Shown piece by piece: positions 37,754 to 49,714 of a stretch of DNA of 64,000 nucleotides. The DNA lies in assembly GCA_029552945.1 (NCBI GenBank), contig JAKPDD010000008.1:62001-126000 (forward strand), in the 5' to 3' direction. How positions within the stretch are numbered: the stretch's first letter is position 1; each line of letters opens with the position of its first letter. The translations under genes and the position numbers were made by a program. Origin of the DNA: Spirochaetota bacterium (GTDB taxonomy: Bacteria > Spirochaetota > GWB1-36-13 > JAKPDD01). Under the pieces are notes generated by a model. The model was not told where the DNA came from, searched no databases, and worked only from the letters and a program-made list of their open reading frames with translations.

Positions 37754-38927
37754 TAACCCTCCTCTTAATAGAGTCAGCAAAAATATTCAAGAAATAATCG
37801 ATATCATCCTTACCAATAATTAATGGGGGCAAAAGTCTTATAACCTTATTTTTTATATTTGATACAATTATTTTATTTTCAAACATAATATCGAAGATAT
37901 TTTTAGCATAATCAGTCTCAATCCCTATCATAAGTCCAATTCCCCTTACCTGTTTTATTATAGCCGGGTAAGAGTCCTGAATTTTTTTAAGACCCGATAT
38001 AAAATAATCTCCTATTTCTAAAACTCTTCTTAAAAAAGCTTTTTTTGATACTATTCTCAAAACTTCATAAGCAACAGCTGTAACCAAATGATTACCACCA
38101 AAAGTCGAAGCATGTTCCCCTGGGTTTAATACAGCCACATCATCTTTTGCATGCATTACACCTATAGGTATTCCGTTGCCAAGCCCTTTAGCAAGTGTTA
38201 TTACATCAGGTTCAATCCCAAAGTGTTTATATGCAAAAATTTTGCCAGTTCTTCCAATTCCAGTCTGAACCTCATCAACAATAAAAAGAGCATTATATTT
38301 TCCAGAAAGTCTCCTTACCTCTTTTACAAAGTCTTTATTAAGAGGAAGCACACCACCCTCGCCCTGAATAACCTCGATGAAAATGCCACACACATCGGAA
38401 TTAAACTTTGCCCGTAGTTCATCTATATTATTAGGTTCAATATATTCAATTCCAGGCAAAAGAGGCTCAAATCCCTGTTGATAAACCTGTTGCCCTGTCA
38501 GTGTTAATGAACCTAATGTCCTGCCATGAAAAGAGTTTTTTAATGAAATAATCCTGTTTTTTGTATCACTAAACTTTTTTCCCCATCTTCTTGCCAGTTT
38601 TAAAGCAGCTTCATTTGCTTCAGCACCACTATTACAGAAAAATGTCTTGCCTTTAAACGATAATTCAGATATATACTTAGCAACCTTATACTGTTTCTCT
38701 ATCAAAAAAAGATTAGAAGTATGCCATAAAAGAGCTGCCTGTTTTTTCAATGTTCTAACTATTTTTGGATTTGAGTGCCCAAGATTAACAACACCAATCC
38801 CAGATATCATATCCATCCATCTATTATTATCAGAATCAAAAAGATAAACCCCATCTCCATAAGAAAAACTTACATTCAATCTATTATATGTACCCATTAC
38901 ATACTCATTAAAATCATTCATTGTCAT
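37737..38927 (-). CDS. argD: acetylornithine/succinyldiaminopimelate-type aminotransferase
   Basis: A class III PLP aminotransferase of the ArgD group, making N-acetylornithine from N-acetylglutamate 5-semialdehyde in arginine synthesis. Motifs visible are FFCNSGAEANEAALKLAR, SFHGRTLGSL, VDEVQTGIGRTG, and the PLP-binding lysine in TLAKGLGNGIP. The start is the third codon of the open frame (ATG at 38925-38927), with AAGGAG 9 bases upstream; the earlier TTG would be only 3 bases from that site. It overlaps the NtrC-type gene by 14 bases, which suggests the regulator and argD share a transcript. ArgD-like members also act on 4-aminobutyrate or lysine, so substrate is probable, not proven. Confidence 0.85.
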   Translation of the reverse strand: MTMNDFNEYVMGTYNRLNVSFSYGDGVYLFDSDNNRWMDMISGIGVVNLGHSNPKIVRTLKKQAALLWHTSNLFLIEKQYKVAKYISELSFKGKTFFCNSGAEANEAALKLARRWGKKFSDTKNRIISLKNSFHGRTLGSLTLTGQQVYQQGFEPLLPGIEYIEPNNIDELRAKFNSDVCGIFIEVIQGEGGVLPLNKDFVKEVRRLSGKYNALFIVDEVQTGIGRTGKIFAYKHFGIEPDVITLAKGLGNGIPIGVMHAKDDVAVLNPGEHASTFGGNHLVTAVAYEVLRIVSKKAFLRRVLEIGDYFISGLKKIQDSYPAIIKQVRGIGLMIGIETDYAKNIFDIMFENKIIVSNIKNKVIRLLPPLIIGKDDIDYFLNIFADSIKRRVNDEIG

Positions 38928-40335
38928 CTTCAAAATCTCCTTTCCTAAAATTATCTATACTTATCTCATATTTTTTTAGCATATCATATAAGTCAGTCCT
39001 GTGCTTACCAGATATTTCAGACGCTTTCTTTATATTGCCTCTTGTATACTCCAACAACCTTGTGATATACTCTTTTTCAAATATCTCTTTTGCTCTTTTA
39101 TAAGATATAATTATATCATTACTACTAAAGTATTCATCATTTTTCTTACTGGCAGTAATATCTTCAGGAAGGTCATTAATCTGAATTACAGAAGTTTTTG
39201 TCAGTAAAACCGCCCTTTCTATCACATTTTCCATCTCTCTTACATTTCCTGGCCAGTTATATTTTATAAATAGATCCATAACAATATTTGAAAAACCAGA
39301 TATATTTTTATTGTATTTATGAGCAAATTTAGCAAGAAAATAGTTAGCAAGTACAGGTATATCATCCGGTCTTTCTCTTAAAGGTGGTATATGAATATTA
39401 ACAACATTGAGTCTATAATAGAGGTCACTCCTGAATTGTCCACTTTCTACAAGTTTTGCAAGATCTCTATTTGTTGCTGCAATAACTCTAACATTTATTT
39501 TTGTTGAAACATTACTACCAATAGGTTTTATCTCTCGCTCCTGTAACACACGAAGAAGTTTAACCTGTAATGATAAAGGCAGTTCCCCTATTTCATCTAA
39601 GAATATAGTACCATTATTAGCTTCCTGAAAAAGACCTGCTTTATCAAAGTCAGCCCCAGTGAAAGCACCCTTTTTATAGCCAAAAAACTCAGATTCAAGT
39701 AGTGTTTCAGGAATAGCACCACAATTTACTGCAACAAAGTTTTTGTCCCTTCTATTACTCAAATGGTGTATTGTCCTTGCAAATAACTCTTTGCCAGTTC
39801 CACTCTCACCAGTTATAAGAACTGTAGAATCTGTTGAAGATATAATGCTTATATTTTCAAGAATACTTTTTATTGACTTACTTATACCAATAATCTTATA
39901 CTGTGTTTCAAAGTCCTGTTGTATAACTTTTTTTATCTTTTCAAGTTCAGAAGTCAAAAACTTATTATGCAATGCTCTCTTTACTTTTAATATAAGAATA
40001 TCATTATTTATTGGCCTTTGAATAAAATCATATGCACCGGATTTAATTGCTCTTACAGCACTCTCTATATCCCCATAAGCAGTAAGTATTATAACCTCTG
40101 AACCAGGAGACCTCTTTTTTATCTCTTTTGTAAGTTCAATCCCATCTATACCAGGTGGCATAAGAAAGTCTGTTATAACAAGGTCAAAATTATCTCTTTT
40201 TATCTTCCTTAAAGCATCATTTGCATCTGATGAAGTTACAATACTAAACCCCTCTTCGCTTAATACAATCCTCATAAGTTCTATATTACTCTTGTTATCA
40301 TCAACTATAAGAATCTTAGAATTGTTAAACTCCAT
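38914..40335 (-). CDS. sigma-54-dependent response regulator (NtrC family)
   Basis: A three-domain activator of 473 residues. The receiver has D56 as phospho-acceptor (LVITDFLMPPGIDG). The AAA+ domain has Walker A GESGTGKE, the sigma-54-contacting GAFTGA loop, Walker B-like GTIFLDEIGELP and the arginine region RSDLYYRLNV. The C-terminus is a Fis-type helix-turn-helix (NIKKASEISGKHRTDLYDMLKKY). It opens transcription from sigma-54 promoters upon phosphorylation. No histidine kinase is adjacent. It overlaps argD by 14 bases. A candidate -24/-12 element lies at 62606, though far away. Confidence 0.95.
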   Translation of the reverse strand: MEFNNSKILIVDDNKSNIELMRIVLSEEGFSIVTSSDANDALRKIKRDNFDLVITDFLMPPGIDGIELTKEIKKRSPGSEVIILTAYGDIESAVRAIKSGAYDFIQRPINNDILILKVKRALHNKFLTSELEKIKKVIQQDFETQYKIIGISKSIKSILENISIISSTDSTVLITGESGTGKELFARTIHHLSNRRDKNFVAVNCGAIPETLLESEFFGYKKGAFTGADFDKAGLFQEANNGTIFLDEIGELPLSLQVKLLRVLQEREIKPIGSNVSTKINVRVIAATNRDLAKLVESGQFRSDLYYRLNVVNIHIPPLRERPDDIPVLANYFLAKFAHKYNKNISGFSNIVMDLFIKYNWPGNVREMENVIERAVLLTKTSVIQINDLPEDITASKKNDEYFSSNDIIISYKRAKEIFEKEYITRLLEYTRGNIKKASEISGKHRTDLYDMLKKYEISIDNFRKGDFEDDNE

Positions 40336-40379: not shown

Positions 40380-41213
40380 CTAAATTCTACTTGTTAATAT
40401 AACTAAAATAAAACCAAAAAAAGCTGAAAAAATATACAAAAAAATATTTAAAAGTCCAGTCTCTGTTATAGCAGGAAATATAATATATATAGACCCCAGG
40501 ACAAGCCCAAGAACAAAAAACATAATAAAGTCTTTAAACCTTTTAATTAAAATACTTATAATTTTAACAATAAAAACAATACCAATCAAAACCCCTACTC
40601 CAAATACAAATATTATCCTCAAATTATCAGCATAAGGAATATAAGTAAATGTCAAAGCAGACATTACAGTTTTATAAAATCCAAGGACAAGTAATACAAA
40701 AGAACCTGAAATACCTGGTAGAACCATAGATGAAGCACCAATTATACCCATAAAAAATAGTTTAATATAAAATAAAAGATCAAATTCATGACTGGCTTTC
40801 TGAGGATTTAAAAAAGATATAAAAATTATAAGGAGAATACCAGACAAAAGAAAAAGATAATTTATAATCTTTTTTCTATTATCAATCTCTTTTAACACAG
40901 ATGGAATTGAAGCAATTATAAGCCCTATAAAAAAGAATATAGTGTAGACATAGTAATTATTTAAAAATATAAGTAATATCTTAGCAAATACAAAAACACC
41001 TAATAATAAACCTATCCCAATCCTAAAAAGATATAAAATCTTCTCTTTTTCTCTAAAAAAATAGATAGACAAAAGAGAGTTTACTGACATTATAAGTTTA
41101 TCATAAATACCAAGAGATAGTGCGATACTACCACCTGATACACCTGGGATAACATTCGCAATCCCTATAAGTATTCCTGATATTATATCCTTTATAATTT
41201 TTTTAATCATCAT
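40380..41213 (-). CDS. DUF368/PopT-family undecaprenyl-phosphate translocase
   Basis: A polytopic membrane protein of 277 residues with about 8 helices and the family motifs GIANVIPGVSGGSIALSLGIYDKL near the N-terminus and GIIGASSMVLPGISGSFVLLVLG near the middle, two related internal halves. DUF368 members have been linked to recycling of undecaprenyl phosphate across the membrane for cell wall and polysaccharide synthesis. The start overlaps the end of the protease gene upstream (AATGATGATTAA), so they are translated together. The exact lipid is inferred from the family. Confidence 0.85.
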   Translation of the reverse strand: MMIKKIIKDIISGILIGIANVIPGVSGGSIALSLGIYDKLIMSVNSLLSIYFFREKEKILYLFRIGIGLLLGVFVFAKILLIFLNNYYVYTIFFFIGLIIASIPSVLKEIDNRKKIINYLFLLSGILLIIFISFLNPQKASHEFDLLFYIKLFFMGIIGASSMVLPGISGSFVLLVLGFYKTVMSALTFTYIPYADNLRIIFVFGVGVLIGIVFIVKIISILIKRFKDFIMFFVLGLVLGSIYIIFPAITETGLLNIFLYIFSAFFGFILVILTSRI

Positions 41214-41883
41214 TACCTCTTGCTATTAGTATAAGCCTTAAAAGCTCGAGTATACCCATAAGAGCAGAAGCAATATATGTTAATGCTGCTGCTTGCAGAA
41301 CTTTTTTTGCACCTTCATACTCATAAGAGTTTAAATAACCTGACTTAAGTATTTTTAAAGCCCTCCTTGAAGCATCAAACTCAACTGGGAGAGTAATTAT
41401 CTGAAATAAAACTACTCCACTAAAAAATATAATTCCCAATTTAACAAAAAGAGGATTATGCAAAAAAAATCCAAGAATAAATAGAGGGAAAGCAGCCCAG
41501 GAAACAAGATTAACAACAGGAACAAAAGAGTTTCTTAAAGCAAGTGGTGCATAACCTTTATTATGTTGAATTGCATGCCCAGCCTCATGTGCTGCAACCC
41601 CTATTGCTGCAATAGAACTTGATTCATAAACATCATCAGAAAGTCTTAAAACCTTTGATCGTGGGTCATAATGGTCAGTTAAACTGCCTTCAACCCTCTC
41701 TATTTTAACATAGGAAAGCCCATAATAGTTTAAAATATCTCTTGCTATTTCCCTTGCTGTCCTTCCATTTAATATTCTATATTTTGAAAAATGATTAAAA
41801 GTATACTTAACCTTATATTGTGCCCATATAGCAAGTATCAGTGCAGGCAAAACTATTATATATGTGGAATCAAAAAATAGCAT
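41203..41883 (-). CDS. YugP-type membrane zinc metallopeptidase
   Basis: A 226-residue protein with an N-terminal membrane helix (~4-22), a zinc-binding HEAGH motif (AAIGVAAHEAGHAIQHNKGYAP, ~100), two or three further hydrophobic helices (~125-165, ~195-215) and the VEFDASRRALKIL segment. This is the YugP/neutral zinc metallopeptidase family. The substrate is unknown, probably membrane proteins. AAGGAGGTT stands right before the ATG. It is followed by the DUF368 gene with a short overlap. Confidence 0.85.
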   Translation of the reverse strand: MLFFDSTYIIVLPALILAIWAQYKVKYTFNHFSKYRILNGRTAREIARDILNYYGLSYVKIERVEGSLTDHYDPRSKVLRLSDDVYESSSIAAIGVAAHEAGHAIQHNKGYAPLALRNSFVPVVNLVSWAAFPLFILGFFLHNPLFVKLGIIFFSGVVLFQIITLPVEFDASRRALKILKSGYLNSYEYEGAKKVLQAAALTYIASALMGILELLRLILIARGNDD

Positions 41884-41988
41884 AATAACCTCCTTGAAAC
41901 TAAGATAGTTATATATTTAAAATTTAAAACAAAATAAAATTTTTTAAGATTAAATTTTAAATATATTAAAATAAAGAAGGGGGAATAT

Positions 41989-42246
41989 ATGTTTCCTTTT
42001 TTTAACAAAAAGGAGATAAAGATAGAAGATAAAAAAAGTGGCAACAATATATATATAACTCAGGAAAGTTTTAAGACTGAAAATGAAAACTTCAAAATAG
42101 AAGGTATTTCAACATCTATATTTATGAACTTGAGTAATAATGATTTTCTAAACAGCATTTTAAACCCATTTAACTTTATGTTACCATTTTCAAGTTTTTT
42201 ATCAAATAACACAAATAAAGCAATAGAAAATAAAAGTAAACAATAA
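41989..42246 (+). CDS. small protein of unknown function
   Basis: The 85-residue frame starts at an ATG with a strong ribosome-binding site (AGGGGG at 41978-41983). It has a charged N-terminal half (KKEIKIEDKKSGNNIYI) and a Phe/Asn/Ser-rich C-terminal half (SILNPFNFMLPFSSFLSN). There is no signal peptide or recognised domain. It is isolated between the protease gene and the phospholipase-like gene, both on the opposite strand. An overlapping frame on the minus strand (42060-42311) is less convincing. Confidence 0.45.
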   Translation: MFPFFNKKEIKIEDKKSGNNIYITQESFKTENENFKIEGISTSIFMNLSNNDFLNSILNPFNFMLPFSSFLSNNTNKAIENKSKQ

Positions 42247-42323
42247 AAAATTTTTGAATGAATTAAATACTGGTATTTTAATACTTCTAGAAACTCTTTT
42301 GTTATTTTCATAACAATTATATT

Positions 42324-43442
42324 TTAATTACTTTTAAAATAATTCAAACTAAAAGAAAAAGGCTCAATTTTTGCGATCTCTCTTTCAAAAACAGAATAAA
42401 TACTATAAGCATTTTCTATAATTACAAAATTTTCATCATTATCATTTACAGCGTTATTACTGAAATTCATTGAACCCATTATAATAGTATTTTTATCTAT
42501 AATAATAACCTTATGATGTAGTTTTTTATCATAATTAAAAACTATTTTTATATCAACCCCAGAATTATATAAGTCTTCAAGATATTGATAGATATAACTA
42601 TAATTAGCCTTAAACTGAGAATAATCAAGATAAATTCTTATTTTAATATTATTAAGAGCCCTCTCTTTAATTTTATAAATGATAAGTTCATCTGTAAGAG
42701 AAAAAGCTATAATATCTATTGATGATATTGCTGAATCTATAAGTGCTAGGACTTTATAACCTATTGGATTTGTATAATCTTTAGGATCATAAATGGGCGT
42801 ATAAGGATTGTCAAGCAAAATTTTAGCACCATTAATAGTTTCATAGCAATAAGTGTAAGGAGTAAAAAAGACTGTTATATAAAAATTGCCAACAATTTTC
42901 TTTAAACCAATATCTATACAACCACTATCATCTTTATTTGATGAGAATTTTTTCTCTACAAACATTTTTTCAAAGTCCTGCTTATATACTGACGCTAAAT
43001 CCTTATTATCAATTAATATAACTGAATTATAATTTTTACCAAGGTCAGTCGTAAAGTTAAGAGAACCAGTAAATACAAACCTATCATCAACAATAATGTA
43101 TTTATTGTGCATTATCCCATTTGAGTTACCATAGATAACAGGAATATAATAAGATAATATCTCCCATCCACTGTTTTTCTGGCTATCATAATCAGTCACA
43201 CCCCTTATTATAACCCCTCTTTTATAAGCATCCAGTAAAAGATTATAGATATCTTGATTATAAAACTCATAGAGAGCTATATCTATACTCTTTTTAGAAG
43301 TTTGAATTATAGTTTTTATAATATCTTCAAAACAATCTTTATCTGTGCATACTAAAATTGAGTTATTATTAAGAAGAACTGGCTTTTCAAAACATGAGAA
43401 AAAAAACAAAAAAATAGGCAGTAAAAAAAGAGTTTTCTTCAT
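42324..43442 (-). CDS. phospholipase-D-like lipoprotein with two HKD motifs
   Basis: A 372-residue protein with a lipoprotein-type signal (residues 1-17, FLFFFSC, C17). Both HxKx4D catalytic motifs are present: H112, K114 and D119 (MHNKYIIVDD...TGSLNF) and a second copy near 310 (HHKVIIIDK...GSMNF). PLD-fold enzymes hydrolyse phosphodiesters of lipids or nucleic acids; the pseudo-dimer arrangement suits cardiolipin synthase, Nuc-like nucleases or lipid hydrolases. The ATG directly follows the TAG of the NACHT/pentapeptide gene (no gap, no ribosome-binding site of its own), so translation must be coupled. The lipobox suggests that it acts in the envelope. Confidence 0.8.
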   Translation of the reverse strand: MKKTLFLLPIFLFFFSCFEKPVLLNNNSILVCTDKDCFEDIIKTIIQTSKKSIDIALYEFYNQDIYNLLLDAYKRGVIIRGVTDYDSQKNSGWEILSYYIPVIYGNSNGIMHNKYIIVDDRFVFTGSLNFTTDLGKNYNSVILIDNKDLASVYKQDFEKMFVEKKFSSNKDDSGCIDIGLKKIVGNFYITVFFTPYTYCYETINGAKILLDNPYTPIYDPKDYTNPIGYKVLALIDSAISSIDIIAFSLTDELIIYKIKERALNNIKIRIYLDYSQFKANYSYIYQYLEDLYNSGVDIKIVFNYDKKLHHKVIIIDKNTIIMGSMNFSNNAVNDNDENFVIIENAYSIYSVFEREIAKIEPFSFSLNYFKSN

Positions 43443-45797
43443 CTAACTTATTGCTTTTTTAATACTCTCCTTTGTATCTTCACACATCTTTACACCTGTA
43501 AAATCAACCCCTCTTATATCAGCCCCCTCAAAATCTACATTCTTAAGTACAGCGTTTTTAAAAGAGGCATTCATAAGATTAGAAAACTTAAAAGATACAC
43601 CATTAAGATTAGCATTATCAAAAATACTTCCATAAAGATTAACTGCTTCAAGCTTAACATTAAAGAAACTTGATGAAGAAAGATCAGTATTATGAAAAAA
43701 TGAAAATGGAAATTTTGAATCCCTTATTGTTACAGAAGCAAGATCAGAATAACAGAAAGATACAGACTTTGAGTTTATCTCCTCAAATGTTGTTTCGGTA
43801 AAAACTGCCTTGGCAAAGTCACAATTAGAAATATCTGACTTTCTTATATCACACTTCTTAAAAATAGACTCACAACCAATAACCCCATGCAAGTTAGATG
43901 CATTAAAATTTGAAAAAGAGAGATTAGACTTTATTATCTTTGACTGAAAAAGATTTGCCTTGTGAAAACTTGAGTTTGAAAGATTTGATTTTATAATATT
44001 TGAGAACTTCATACTACACATATTAAAAGTTGAGGACTTAAACTCAGATTCAGAAACAACAACTTTTTCCATGTTTGATGCTGTAAAGTCAATATTTGTA
44101 CATTTACAGTTTTTAAAATCAGCTGACTTTAATATTGTCTCTCTTAGATCAGCGGAGGATATTTTAAGATAATTAAACTCCCTTGAAATAAGGTCAATTT
44201 TTTGAAGAGAAATTCTGACAATCGGTATTTCTGAATCTATACCAATATGGTTAGAAACTTTATACATAAGATAAAAAACATCACCTCTATCTTTTGGATA
44301 TTTTTCTCTTGTATACTTTTCTATCAATATATTCATTATCTTGTCATAGCCAAGATAATCCTCTACAAAATCAAGAATAAACTTTGATGAAAGCAGATTT
44401 ATATTATTATAATTCCCTCTTCTTATCTCTTCAACAAGTTTTTTAGCAAGGAAAAAGTAAGTAAAAGATGAGTGAATAAAAGTATAAGTGTTAGGCCCCA
44501 ACTTTTTTATAAAAAAAGATTTTTCAAGGTCTTTGTTCAAAAACTCAGTAGAAAATGGCATTGCTTTATATTCATTATTTATAAAACTCTCTATAAAGTC
44601 AGGTATATCTTTCTTAGAATCAAAATAACCTTTATTTATTATTACTCTAGCCATTTCTTCACAAATTGTTGCTTTACCAAGTGGTGTAAGATAAGAAGTA
44701 TTCCATTGCTTTAAAGCCTCTTTATATATATCTATAGGTTTATTTATAACAGTATCATCTGTTAAAGATATTTTTGTTATTATATCAAAAAATATCGGTA
44801 GTTTTACAAGTTCTGAAAGATTCTTATTATCAAAGATCTTTTGGATATTTTGCCCCTTTATCTTCTTTTTAATATCTGAAAATGTAAGATGAGCTATAGT
44901 AAATATCTTTGGTTTAAATAATGCAATAACCCTGTATATAGCATGGTTTGAATGATAATTATTTGTTATAAAATTATCATCAGCTGTAAATAAAATCGGT
45001 GTATTGGTACTAATAAGACGTTCAAACTCCTTATAGAAAGAATCATCAGAATTTATATTAACAAGATAGTCAAGATTATCAAAAAGAAATATTATTTTTT
45101 TCTCTCTACATAATATATGAAATATTTTCTCAGACTTTATCTTTATATTATTTTTTTTTAACCCATTACTTATAATAAAATCATATAGAGACCCAGACTT
45201 ATAATCCTTAAAGTCAATAAAAATAGGTAAAAAATTATTGTCATCATATTCATTGAATAATATATATTTTAAAAGAGTGGTTTTCCCAGAACCAGTCTCT
45301 CCTTTTACTATAATAGGATAAGACTCACTACTAGTTAAAATCTTTGTAAATACACTTAATTTAACAGTATTATTGTTTTCAGAAATAAGATTAACAGAGA
45401 AAAAATTATCTTCTAAAGACTTTTTCTGTTCAAAAAGTTTTTCTCGATACAAGGTAGTATCAACAAGGTTTGATAGTATCTCATCAACATTTAATGTTGT
45501 TATATTAAGACTATTTGCAACCTCTATTGCTTTTGATGTAAACCCAGGGTAACCAATAAAAACTGGTTTACCATCTATTTTAACTGTATTTATATCAATA
45601 AAAAAGTCTCTTATATTCTCTTCTGTCACATAACCATCTTTAATATATTCTATCCTTAAAATAAAAGGAATTTCTATTTTTGTAACTTTTAAAGATGCTG
45701 AATATGTATTTCTTTTTATTTTTTTAAAATTAAAAAAATCAATTTCTTCGAGTAATTCAATTATATTTTCAACAAAAAGTTTAGAAGCCCATCTCAT
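43443..45797 (-). CDS. NACHT-type STAND ATPase with pentapeptide-repeat C-terminus
   Basis: The 784-residue protein has three parts. Residues 1-115 resemble a restriction-endonuclease-like (Mrr-type) fold (KPVFIGYPGFTSKAIEVAN, LNITTLNVDEIL) but without a clear D-(E/Q)xK active site. Residues ~145-500 are a NACHT-like NTPase: Walker A GETGSGKTT (166-174), Walker B IIFLFDNLD (235-243), TADDN sensor-like motif. From ~545 to 775, roughly 45 pentapeptide repeats (A/S-N/D-L/F-x-x) form a predicted right-handed beta helix. STAND ATPases often act as immune-type switches; the pentapeptide domain would be the sensor or scaffold. It is co-transcribed with the PLD-like gene. Confidence 0.8.
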   Translation of the reverse strand: MRWASKLFVENIIELLEEIDFFNFKKIKRNTYSASLKVTKIEIPFILRIEYIKDGYVTEENIRDFFIDINTVKIDGKPVFIGYPGFTSKAIEVANSLNITTLNVDEILSNLVDTTLYREKLFEQKKSLEDNFFSVNLISENNNTVKLSVFTKILTSSESYPIIVKGETGSGKTTLLKYILFNEYDDNNFLPIFIDFKDYKSGSLYDFIISNGLKKNNIKIKSEKIFHILCREKKIIFLFDNLDYLVNINSDDSFYKEFERLISTNTPILFTADDNFITNNYHSNHAIYRVIALFKPKIFTIAHLTFSDIKKKIKGQNIQKIFDNKNLSELVKLPIFFDIITKISLTDDTVINKPIDIYKEALKQWNTSYLTPLGKATICEEMARVIINKGYFDSKKDIPDFIESFINNEYKAMPFSTEFLNKDLEKSFFIKKLGPNTYTFIHSSFTYFFLAKKLVEEIRRGNYNNINLLSSKFILDFVEDYLGYDKIMNILIEKYTREKYPKDRGDVFYLMYKVSNHIGIDSEIPIVRISLQKIDLISREFNYLKISSADLRETILKSADFKNCKCTNIDFTASNMEKVVVSESEFKSSTFNMCSMKFSNIIKSNLSNSSFHKANLFQSKIIKSNLSFSNFNASNLHGVIGCESIFKKCDIRKSDISNCDFAKAVFTETTFEEINSKSVSFCYSDLASVTIRDSKFPFSFFHNTDLSSSSFFNVKLEAVNLYGSIFDNANLNGVSFKFSNLMNASFKNAVLKNVDFEGADIRGVDFTGVKMCEDTKESIKKAIS

Positions 45798-45946
45798 TTT
45801 TACCCCACATAAAATTTTGTAACCTTATAAAATAATAATCGAAATTTATTATTAAACTAATTAAAATTTTATTTTTAAATTTTCTAAAAATAAAAGAAAA
45901 TTTATAAATTGTTAATTTATTTATAAAAAAATTAAAAGGTAAAAAA

Positions 45947-47539
45947 ATGAAATTAAGAAAAATAATAATATTAGTTACATTAATAAATGTATTAATTCTT
46001 AACAGGTTTTTTGGTGAAAACATTGACGATAAACTACTTGAAGAGTATAAAAATATTTTGATGTTTGGAATAGCAGATAAAAGAGCTGAAGTATTAAGAA
46101 AAATAGGTGATTATAAAGGTGATAACAAAAAATTTTATTCACTTATAGAATATGTTATAGAAAATGATACAAATACAATTGTATTAAGAGAGGCTTTAAA
46201 CCTTGTTGAAAAGTTTAAAATAAGTGAAGTTGGAGATAAGGTTGCAAAGATACTTGAAGAGACAAAAGAGAATCAGATAAAAGTTGCATCTCTTAGAGCA
46301 TTAGGATCTATAAATTATAATAAAGTATCAAATAAAGTATTAGAACTACTGGATGAAAAAGACCCAAATATAAAAAGAGCAGTATTATTCTTTATAGGTG
46401 AAACTAAAGATAAAAAAGGACTTGACTCAATATATAAAATCCTTGAAAATATGGATGAAAAAGAGGACGTATTACAGGAGGCTATAGCAACTCTGGGAAA
46501 AATAGGAGATAAAAACTCAATTGAAAAACTAAAAGATATACTTGAAAATCCAGGGTATTCAAAATATGTAAGGATGTATGCTCCAATAAGCTTGGCTCAA
46601 ATAGGTGGAAAAGAGGTTGTTGATATAATTAAAAAAGCAACTGAAGACAGTGAATATGTCATAAGAATAAGAGCAATATATAGCCTTTCACTACTTGAAG
46701 GAGTTGACATAAACATATTCTCAAAACAGATTGAAAATGCACTGAAAGACTCTGATGTTAATGTAAGACTTACAGCCCTTGATGTTGTAAAAAATCTGAA
46801 TGCTATCTCTTTTGTACCGTTCTTAAAATATCTTATATCAAACGACCCTGAGCTTAAAGTAAGAGACAAAGCCCTTAAAGTATATGCTAAAATAGAAAAA
46901 GAGAAAGATGTTATAGAAACAATCCAGGAAATGGTTGACAAAAAAGACTTTTACTCAAAAATACTTGCACTTGATACAATGAAAGAAGTTGGAGTTGAAA
47001 AGTTTATTAGTTTCTTAAAAAAAACATTTATAGAAAAGACAACATATGATATAAGGGATAAAATATTAAGGGTAGCTGCTGAAAAAATAGAAAATGAAAG
47101 TGTTTTTGAATTTATACAAGAGATAGCACTTAATAAAAACATACCTGGATATTATGATGCTATAAATAAAATAAGATATAATGCTATGCTTACACTTACA
47201 AAAGCAGGATGGCAAAAATCTTTTCCCACTTTATCAAGAATAGCAGAAGATAATAATGACCCTATAAACACATTTGCAATAAAGCTAATAATAAACCTCA
47301 ATAGAGATGCAGCAAAAAATTACTTTATTGAAAAATTAAACAACATAAGTTTATACAACTATAAAATAAGATATGAGATAATAAAAGCAATAGGAGACTT
47401 AAAACCTGAAGGAATAGAAGATAAACTTAAAGCTATTTACATTACAGAAAAAGATGCAGGTATGAAAATAGTAATAGGTAAAGTATTAAGTCTATACGGT
47501 ATTGATCCAAAAACCCTGGATGAAAAGCAGATAAAATAA
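45947..47539 (+). CDS. exported HEAT-repeat protein
   Basis: A signal peptide (residues ~1-23) precedes about 500 residues of HEAT/PBS-lyase-like repeats of ~35 residues (examples: LREALNLVEKFKISEVGDKV, LQEAIATLGKIGDKNSIEKL). It probably forms an alpha-solenoid binding surface in the periplasm. There is no enzyme motif. It diverges from the NACHT gene; the gap 45798-45946 carries both promoters. It converges on a FecR/barrel gene; the gap 47540-47695 has only a weak A/T hairpin. AAAGG lies 7 bases before the ATG. The partner is unknown. Confidence 0.75.
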   Translation: MKLRKIIILVTLINVLILNRFFGENIDDKLLEEYKNILMFGIADKRAEVLRKIGDYKGDNKKFYSLIEYVIENDTNTIVLREALNLVEKFKISEVGDKVAKILEETKENQIKVASLRALGSINYNKVSNKVLELLDEKDPNIKRAVLFFIGETKDKKGLDSIYKILENMDEKEDVLQEAIATLGKIGDKNSIEKLKDILENPGYSKYVRMYAPISLAQIGGKEVVDIIKKATEDSEYVIRIRAIYSLSLLEGVDINIFSKQIENALKDSDVNVRLTALDVVKNLNAISFVPFLKYLISNDPELKVRDKALKVYAKIEKEKDVIETIQEMVDKKDFYSKILALDTMKEVGVEKFISFLKKTFIEKTTYDIRDKILRVAAEKIENESVFEFIQEIALNKNIPGYYDAINKIRYNAMLTLTKAGWQKSFPTLSRIAEDNNDPINTFAIKLIINLNRDAAKNYFIEKLNNISLYNYKIRYEIIKAIGDLKPEGIEDKLKAIYITEKDAGMKIVIGKVLSLYGIDPKTLDEKQIK

Positions 47540-47695
47540 AAATATTTTTTCATATATTAAGTACTTTTTAAATTTTTCTATAAAATTTTTATAAAAAAGT
47601 TAAATAAAATGTCTTAGATCTTGTATTTTAATTAAAAATAAATTTTAACTATAATAATCATAGATTAATATCTGAAAAATAATAAATTAAAAGTA

Positions 47696-49714
47696 TTAAA
47701 ATCTTACATAAGTAATGAGCATAACTCTATTTTCTTTTTCTCCTTTAGTGTTATACATCCAGAATTTTTTAAAGGATATATACGCGTTTGGAGCAATCAT
47801 ATATGTTAAACTGAATAGTAAAATAGAATCTTTATCATAAGTCTCTATACTAAAACCCTGTAACAATTTTTGATAATATAAATCAATAAAGAACCCATAA
47901 ACATCTGTAGTTTTAACATTAACAAAAGAAAAACTCATATCATTTTTTTTCAAATATAAACTTGTGCCACCTTCAAAACTAAATAAAGAAGGTATTTCGA
48001 AACCTATGTTTGCCTTAAAAGAATGATCGTCTGATTTAGAAGGAGTAACCATGTATAAAATATTTGATGCTCTCTTAACATAACACATCTTATCAAAATA
48101 TGAGTCCAAAAATCCACTATGAAGATAACTATAATAGAATCTATAATTCACATAATTTACAATTTTACCTGTAAAACCTAATCCAGCACCATAATTGTCA
48201 AAGAGATGGAAATGGGCAAAATCTGTTCCATCAGCCCATGAAGCTGGTCTTGTCTCCCAATGTCTATAATAGAGCCCCTGTTTACCTATATCAAAAACAA
48301 TACTACTATTAAAAATATTTCCACCTAACAATGGTATAAGTGAGTTTATACCAACATAAAAATATGCAGGGTTGTTAAAATCACTCAATGGATTCTTGTC
48401 AATATCAATCTCAAGTCCAATCCTGAACTTCCCCATAAATGGAACACCATAAAAAGGCCTTAAAAACATATTAATAAAAATAATTTCTGGGTCTGTTACA
48501 TTATTTACAAAACCCTCAACACCAAAATTACCATTATCTATAGCTACCTCAGCTCCAATTTTCCTATCAAAAACAGAACCACTGTTGTCAAAATAATTTA
48601 CCATAAAACCATTAGCAATAACTATATTATTTAGTTCACCTAATCTTATAAATAATAGGTCAGACCTATCATTATATTGAAAATATGATATTTTAAGAAA
48701 AATGTCATTTATTATATCGCTTCCATTAGAAAAATTAAACTCATCATAATTTCCCCATTTTGAGATATTATAAATAGGTACCCTACCATCAATTATTAAT
48801 GGTAAAAATAATTCAAGTTTTATGTTATCTCTTATTTTAAAATATGGCTTAAAGAACAAAGTTTTATAAAAATAGTTGTCTTTTGAAACAGAACCAAGCC
48901 CAATACTTAAACTAAAAACCTTATCTTTTTTCTTATCAAAAATATCTGATACTCTTTTTATACCCTCATCTTCTCTCTGTTTATTTTCTTCTAATTTCTC
49001 TATATTTATTTTATCTTCTTTCTCTTTTTTTTCTTCTGCCTGGACTAAATTCGTAGTTTTATCAGGAATATTATTAAGAGATGTTACATCAGGATATTCA
49101 CTTTTTACATTGGTAATAGCTGTAGAATCAGGGCCTATATAACTTAACTTTGGATCAAGTTTATCTATTTTAAACTCTAATTCCTCAATTGTGGCATTTG
49201 AAACCCTTGCTTCCTTAAAAGAGTATGATGTATCCCACTCAAACTTCTGTCCTTTTGTTAAAGAAAAATAACCAGTAGCTTGAGTATCAGATACCTCAAC
49301 TATACCATCATATAATACAACCTTATTAAGAGCCCCGGCTGCACTTACCCTAAATATTGTGCCTCTAACACCAACAACAAGAGCCAAAGTCTTAACAGTA
49401 TGATTTCTATCAACAATAAACTCACTCTCTCCAGCATGTAAAAATGATGTATTTGAATCAATAAAGGATAAAGTAGATTCAGGATAGACAAAAAACTTTC
49501 TATTATCAGATGATATAATCTTTAAATATGAATTTTTACCTGTTCTTACTGTTTTTATATCCTCAATAATCTCATTAACTTTAATTTTAGAATATTTACT
49601 ATCTTTTACAGTATTATACTCAGCGTTACCTATAACATAGGTAACCTGAAACCTAATTGCAAAAATATTAACAGAAAACAAAATAAAAATTTGTATAATA
49701 AAGAAAACTCTCAT
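47696..49714 (-). CDS. FecR domain fused to outer-membrane beta barrel
   Basis: The 672-residue protein has a signal peptide (1-19), a FecR domain (~35-160, with VKTLALVVGVRGTIFRV and the strand VVLYDGIVEV), a charged Lys/Glu linker (~225-265) and a C-terminal ~400-residue barrel ending in the aromatic strand VMLITYVRF. The barrel part is homologous to the gene just upstream: both contain RLGELNNIVIANGF- / RVASLDNVEFGYGI-like and MFLRPF / GFLRPF segments in the same order. The protein would sit in the outer membrane with the FecR part in the periplasm. It follows the paralogue by 11 bases. Confidence 0.7.
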   Translation of the reverse strand: MRVFFIIQIFILFSVNIFAIRFQVTYVIGNAEYNTVKDSKYSKIKVNEIIEDIKTVRTGKNSYLKIISSDNRKFFVYPESTLSFIDSNTSFLHAGESEFIVDRNHTVKTLALVVGVRGTIFRVSAAGALNKVVLYDGIVEVSDTQATGYFSLTKGQKFEWDTSYSFKEARVSNATIEELEFKIDKLDPKLSYIGPDSTAITNVKSEYPDVTSLNNIPDKTTNLVQAEEKKEKEDKINIEKLEENKQREDEGIKRVSDIFDKKKDKVFSLSIGLGSVSKDNYFYKTLFFKPYFKIRDNIKLELFLPLIIDGRVPIYNISKWGNYDEFNFSNGSDIINDIFLKISYFQYNDRSDLLFIRLGELNNIVIANGFMVNYFDNSGSVFDRKIGAEVAIDNGNFGVEGFVNNVTDPEIIFINMFLRPFYGVPFMGKFRIGLEIDIDKNPLSDFNNPAYFYVGINSLIPLLGGNIFNSSIVFDIGKQGLYYRHWETRPASWADGTDFAHFHLFDNYGAGLGFTGKIVNYVNYRFYYSYLHSGFLDSYFDKMCYVKRASNILYMVTPSKSDDHSFKANIGFEIPSLFSFEGGTSLYLKKNDMSFSFVNVKTTDVYGFFIDLYYQKLLQGFSIETYDKDSILLFSLTYMIAPNAYISFKKFWMYNTKGEKENRVMLITYVRF

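Follow-up and report, generated by a model that had tools for sequence, protein, structure and literature searches.

Two abutting genes in a Spirochaetota genome, one for a NACHT-type STAND NTPase with a pentapeptide-repeat tail and one for a lipoprotein of the phospholipase D (PLD) superfamily, raise the question of whether they work as a pair. The first-pass annotation proposed that they do, as a two-gene system that could act in envelope stress or host interaction. The comparative analysis presented below indicates that this system is probably not real.

The window is a 64,000-nt stretch of DNA from a Spirochaetota bacterium (GCA_029552945.1, JAKPDD010000008.1, positions 62,001-126,000, forward strand). 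Its open reading frames and Pfam matches define an NTPase of 784 aa (43443..45797, minus strand), with an Mrr-like head, a NACHT module, and a pentapeptide tail, and a nuclease-like, two-HKD lipoprotein of 372 aa (42324..43442, minus strand), an ortholog of PLD genes that stand in a cassette elsewhere. As first annotated, the NTPase stop codon TAG directly abuts the PLD start codon ATG (gap 0), and the PLD gene has no ribosome-binding site of its own: no Shine-Dalgarno sequence lies within 20 nt of its start, and an AAGGAG is found ~25 nt upstream. The other two zero-gap pairs do have a Shine-Dalgarno sequence, GAGGAGG in one and AAGAGG in the other. Zero-gap spacing is not rare here (3 of 44 same-strand neighbors within the window, with gaps of ≤30 nt in 29 of 44). 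Because zero and near-zero gaps are ordinary in the window, the abutment suggests a shared transcript and not a shared function. The layout, lacking a Shine-Dalgarno sequence, also suggests that in this lineage translation of the PLD gene is coupled to that of the NTPase gene, and such a link could have evolved recently. A terminator-like site was sought in positions 41850-47700 and none was found; promoter-like sites in this AT-rich region occur at chance level. A small plus-strand reading frame (41989-42246, 85 aa, no Pfam match) lies between the PLD gene and a Zn-peptidase gene.

Architecture of the NTPase

The domain reading of the first-pass annotation, a STAND-type NTPase with Walker A and B motifs, ~45 pentapeptide repeats, and an N-terminal restriction-endonuclease-like domain without a clear active site, was borne out, with the fold of that domain probable. 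Residues 145-500 (FIHSSFTYFFLAKKL; 44298..45365, minus strand) hold the NACHT NTPase with its helical and winged-helix region, recognized by Pfam NACHT (32.9 bits; cut-off, 26.7), by sequence matches to NLRC4 and NLRP proteins, and by fold matches of a low-confidence model to Avs4 and NLRC4. Walker A (GETGSGKTT, residues 166-174, 45276..45302, minus strand) and the Walker B region (residues 235-243, 45069..45095, minus strand, with FLFDNLD at 237-243) are both kept in the only full-length ortholog, that of genome G001, and a NACHT winged-helix signature is present. A NACHT domain with both Walker motifs places the protein among the NACHT STAND NTPases. The tail scores 86.9 bits against Pfam Pentapeptide, and 45 pentapeptides were counted in register, most of them within residues 536-772 (43482..44192, minus strand), where the model reaches a pLDDT of ~90 at the C-terminal end. 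No signal peptide, transmembrane segment, or other hydrophobic segment was found in the NTPase, which is accordingly predicted to be cytoplasmic. The AlphaFold models were built from two-sequence alignments and are poor (mean pLDDT, 51.8 and 59.9), so fold matches made with them are only supporting evidence.

The head (residues 1-115, 45453..45797, minus strand) probably, but not certainly, has an Mrr/PD-(D/E)XK fold. Residues 1-131 of the G001 ortholog match Pfam Mrr_cat at 22.2 bits (curated cut-off, 21); the window head alone gives no Mrr_cat match at detection level, and a PDB search with a profile of the head returned nothing meaningful. In its low-confidence model, elements follow the helix-strand-strand-strand-helix-strand order of PD-(D/E)XK folds, and PD-(D/E)XK enzymes rank first in the fold search. 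Top-ranked PDB hits are, among others, MspJI, EndoMS, and AF1548, and no hit falls below an E value of 0.001. The catalytic D and (E/Q)xK are absent, by eye in the alignment, from the expected positions in both the window NTPase and the ortholog. The strand expected to hold (E/Q)xK reads RIEY in one and NIHY in the other, and the alignment shows no conserved acidic residue ahead of it. The head thus appears to have lost catalysis, as judged from one comparison of two sequences.

Distribution and surroundings of the NTPase gene

We searched 393 genomes of the phylum for the NTPase core (residues 1-529). Full-length matches were found in two, the window genome and Spirochaetes bacterium GWB1_36_13 (G001, contig MIAO01000071), which are the two genomes representing the class in the set; two further genomes gave weak partial matches. 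The two NTPases are 41% identical from end to end, and every NTPase motif is preserved. TopA, at 53% identity between the genomes, was chosen as the yardstick of divergence; the DUF368-type neighbor (40380-41213) is absent from G001. Somewhat lower identities for the NTPase (41%) and for the adjacent HEAT-repeat protein (44%) are compatible with vertical descent. GC content matches the surroundings, and no compositional sign of transfer was detected. Scans of genome contigs, a weak test outside the phylum in that they rely on few short patterns, returned nothing with the single NTPase sequence and the G001 contig only with the two-sequence alignment; a scan of viral contigs, likewise with few short patterns, returned nothing. 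Plasmid and phage searches gave matches to the pentapeptides and no relative of the core. With searches outside the phylum being shallow, the best reading of this distribution is a chromosomal, class-restricted NACHT switch. Elsewhere in the phylum, three other NACHT proteins exceed the Pfam cut-off in one genome (G026; contigs C36, which is locus L077, C224, and C39), and another locus (L005, G034:C1:1298776-1320831) holds a cluster of very long pentapeptide-repeat reading frames of up to ~1057 aa.

These results bear on whether the NTPase is an anti-phage protein of the kind represented by bNACHT25 and bNACHT32, clade 6 bacterial NACHT proteins in which defense depends on nuclease residue D48 (PMC12169576). 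Its tail would sense a phage product and its oligomerized head would block infection, perhaps as a degenerate or non-nucleolytic effector of nuclease fold. The three-part order of PD-(D/E)XK head, NACHT module, and C-terminal sensor is the same (PMC12169576), and the full-length model resembles Avs4 and NLRC4. Against this, the catalytic residues are absent from both orthologs, and the core has no plasmid, phage, or viral-contig relative and no compositional sign of transfer. No NCBIfam defense family was matched over its cut-off, and the PADLOC matches are weak and generic. Among nine neighbors tested no true defense gene was found, only generic HEAT and response-regulator matches, and the neighbors are of housekeeping type, with no sign of a defense island or mobile element. 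We consider this anti-phage reading unlikely. A defense role in general is possible but not favored, and unsupported, because catalysis, a convincing defense-family match, and a mobile location are all lacking. Two PADLOC matches were rejected: the gene at 38914-40335 matched RtcR through generic similarity among sigma-54 regulators, and the PLD protein matched DrmC/DpdK through HKD similarity of a generic kind (NCBIfam DrmC score, 55 bits; cut-off, 133).

The one neighbor shared with G001 is the gene for a secreted HEAT-repeat protein (530 aa, 45947..47539, plus strand), which is divergent from the NTPase gene in both genomes; apart from these two, the genes of the 15.4-kb G001 stretch have no match in the window. 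The pairing is thus seen as conserved in one comparison, of two genomes. A regulatory relationship could be drawn from it, in which the catalytically dead head binds the 149-bp intergenic region (45798..45946). MalT and other STAND proteins that carry DNA-binding domains act as transcription regulators. On that model an immune-type switch would have had its nuclease head retired into a DNA-binding output, regulating transcription of the divergent periplasmic HEAT-repeat protein. The persistence of the divergent pair amid so little other local synteny speaks for such a role. HEAT relatives, however, are far commoner than the NTPase (54 of 149 phylum genomes, nearly all without it), and comparison of the two intergenic regions gave no shared motif above shuffles and no shared word longer than those in shuffled sequences. 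We regard both the binding of this region and the resulting regulation as doubtful. Since its relatives mostly occur without the NTPase, the HEAT protein is not dependent on it; the NTPase may depend on the HEAT protein.

Origin of the PLD gene

The PLD protein begins with a signal peptide and a candidate lipobox (FFSC, Cys17; 43392..43442, minus strand), and a Cys likewise follows a hydrophobic stretch in the G001 and G063 orthologs. It scores 145 bits against Pfam PLDc_2 and belongs to the PLD superfamily by two intact HKD motifs of the HxKx4Dx6GSxN pattern, at residues 112-129 (43056..43109, minus strand) and 309-326 (42465..42518, minus strand). Its nearest sequence matches are Nuc/MitoPLD-type nucleases and cardiolipin hydrolases, not classical phospholipases. 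A second, more distant two-HKD PLD-like protein of the same genome (325 aa, L046:7774-8751) is encoded beside a PilZ-like gene.

PLD relatives are present in 54 of 100 phylum genomes, set against 2 of 393 for the full-length NTPase. A survey of gene neighborhoods for a conserved PLD pairing had been set beforehand as the refuting test. In G001, the only other NTPase genome, a convergent unrelated gene and no PLD gene lies downstream of the NTPase gene, and the PLD ortholog sits on a different contig, followed by genes for a lipoprotein with a lamin tail domain (LTD) and an outer-membrane-barrel-like protein (OMP). The pairing is therefore not conserved among homologs, and the claim of a two-gene system is not supported. 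The order PLD-LTD-OMP recurs in G001, G063, and G124 (L044:9288-14403, L045:6618-11047, and L072:1644-5944), which come from three families of the phylum; the arrangement is looser in G017, G047, and G065 (L073, L074, and L076). We did not find a name for such a set. Its third gene matched no Pfam family, and the product is predicted to be barrel-like from the character of its sequence.

The window PLD gene is not adjacent to LTD or OMP genes. Homologs of both lie side by side on contig C47 of the window genome (L060:5019-8049), with no adjoining PLD gene. A 22-protein PLD tree unites the window PLD and the three cassette PLDs in one group (support, 100/100), apart from a paralog of the same genome on contig C30. 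Because of this grouping, and because LTD and OMP remain on C47 without a PLD gene, the window PLD gene was probably displaced from the cassette to behind the NTPase gene in this lineage. It branches first in the cassette-PLD group, outside the other three and not with that of G001, which may reflect long-branch noise or a history beyond one relocation. The cassette itself is probably an exported surface set for nucleic acid processing. Other extracellular nucleases of bacteria, ExeM among them, also contain lamin tail domains (PMC6085458), and on that analogy a surface nucleic-acid-processing role for the PLD protein is a reasonable inference.

A joint envelope-stress or host-interaction switch, to which the zero gap and the missing Shine-Dalgarno sequence lend some color, found no comparative support and is highly improbable: the genes are apart in G001, PLD belongs to another conserved cassette, and the two products are predicted to occupy different compartments.

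A proposed stand-alone switch and its known relatives

We favor, with moderate confidence, an explanation in which the NTPase stands alone as a cytoplasmic NACHT switch, apparently inherited vertically, whose nuclease-fold head is non-catalytic, and in which the PLD protein is a displaced cassette member and not its effector. By analogy with STAND biology, the pentapeptide helix would sense or dock a ligand or partner, and ATP-driven assembly would bring several heads together. The clustered heads might then act by binding DNA or protein, not by cutting. The PLD gene would now be co-transcribed with the NTPase gene in this one lineage without serving as its effector. Should the head indeed work by binding and not by cleavage, the protein would be a bacterial NLR-like switch moved off nucleolytic defense and, being confined to one small class, would make a clean case of how NLR-like proteins get repurposed. 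The locus also carries a caution: a zero-gap pair in one genome can stem from gene relocation, and one related genome exposes that.

Among known systems, bNACHT25 and bNACHT32 share the three-part layout; their heads, however, are active nucleases, an effector that the window NTPase lacks by its missing catalytic residues, and their C-terminal domain is NCH1, not a run of pentapeptide repeats. Fusions of Mrr and NACHT have been known since 2007 from a survey of PD-(D/E)XK proteins (PMC1913061). The fusion reported there likewise joins an Mrr-type domain to a NACHT ATPase, but it is cited as a restriction endonuclease, and the survey's account of it does not describe a pentapeptide tail. Conflict systems built with superstructure-forming repeats (PMC7159879, PMC8195603) repeatedly feature STAND NTPases and repeats of the pentapeptide, TPR, or HEAT kind, but the MoxR/vWA, TRADD-N, caspase, or TIR partners of those systems have no counterpart at the window locus. 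The PLD protein, for its part, resembles nuclease-type enzymes in its HKD domains, and its sequence matches are NucT, Nuc, and mitochondrial cardiolipin hydrolase; it differs from them in scoring far under the NucT equivalog cut-offs and in combining two HKD domains in one lipoprotein.
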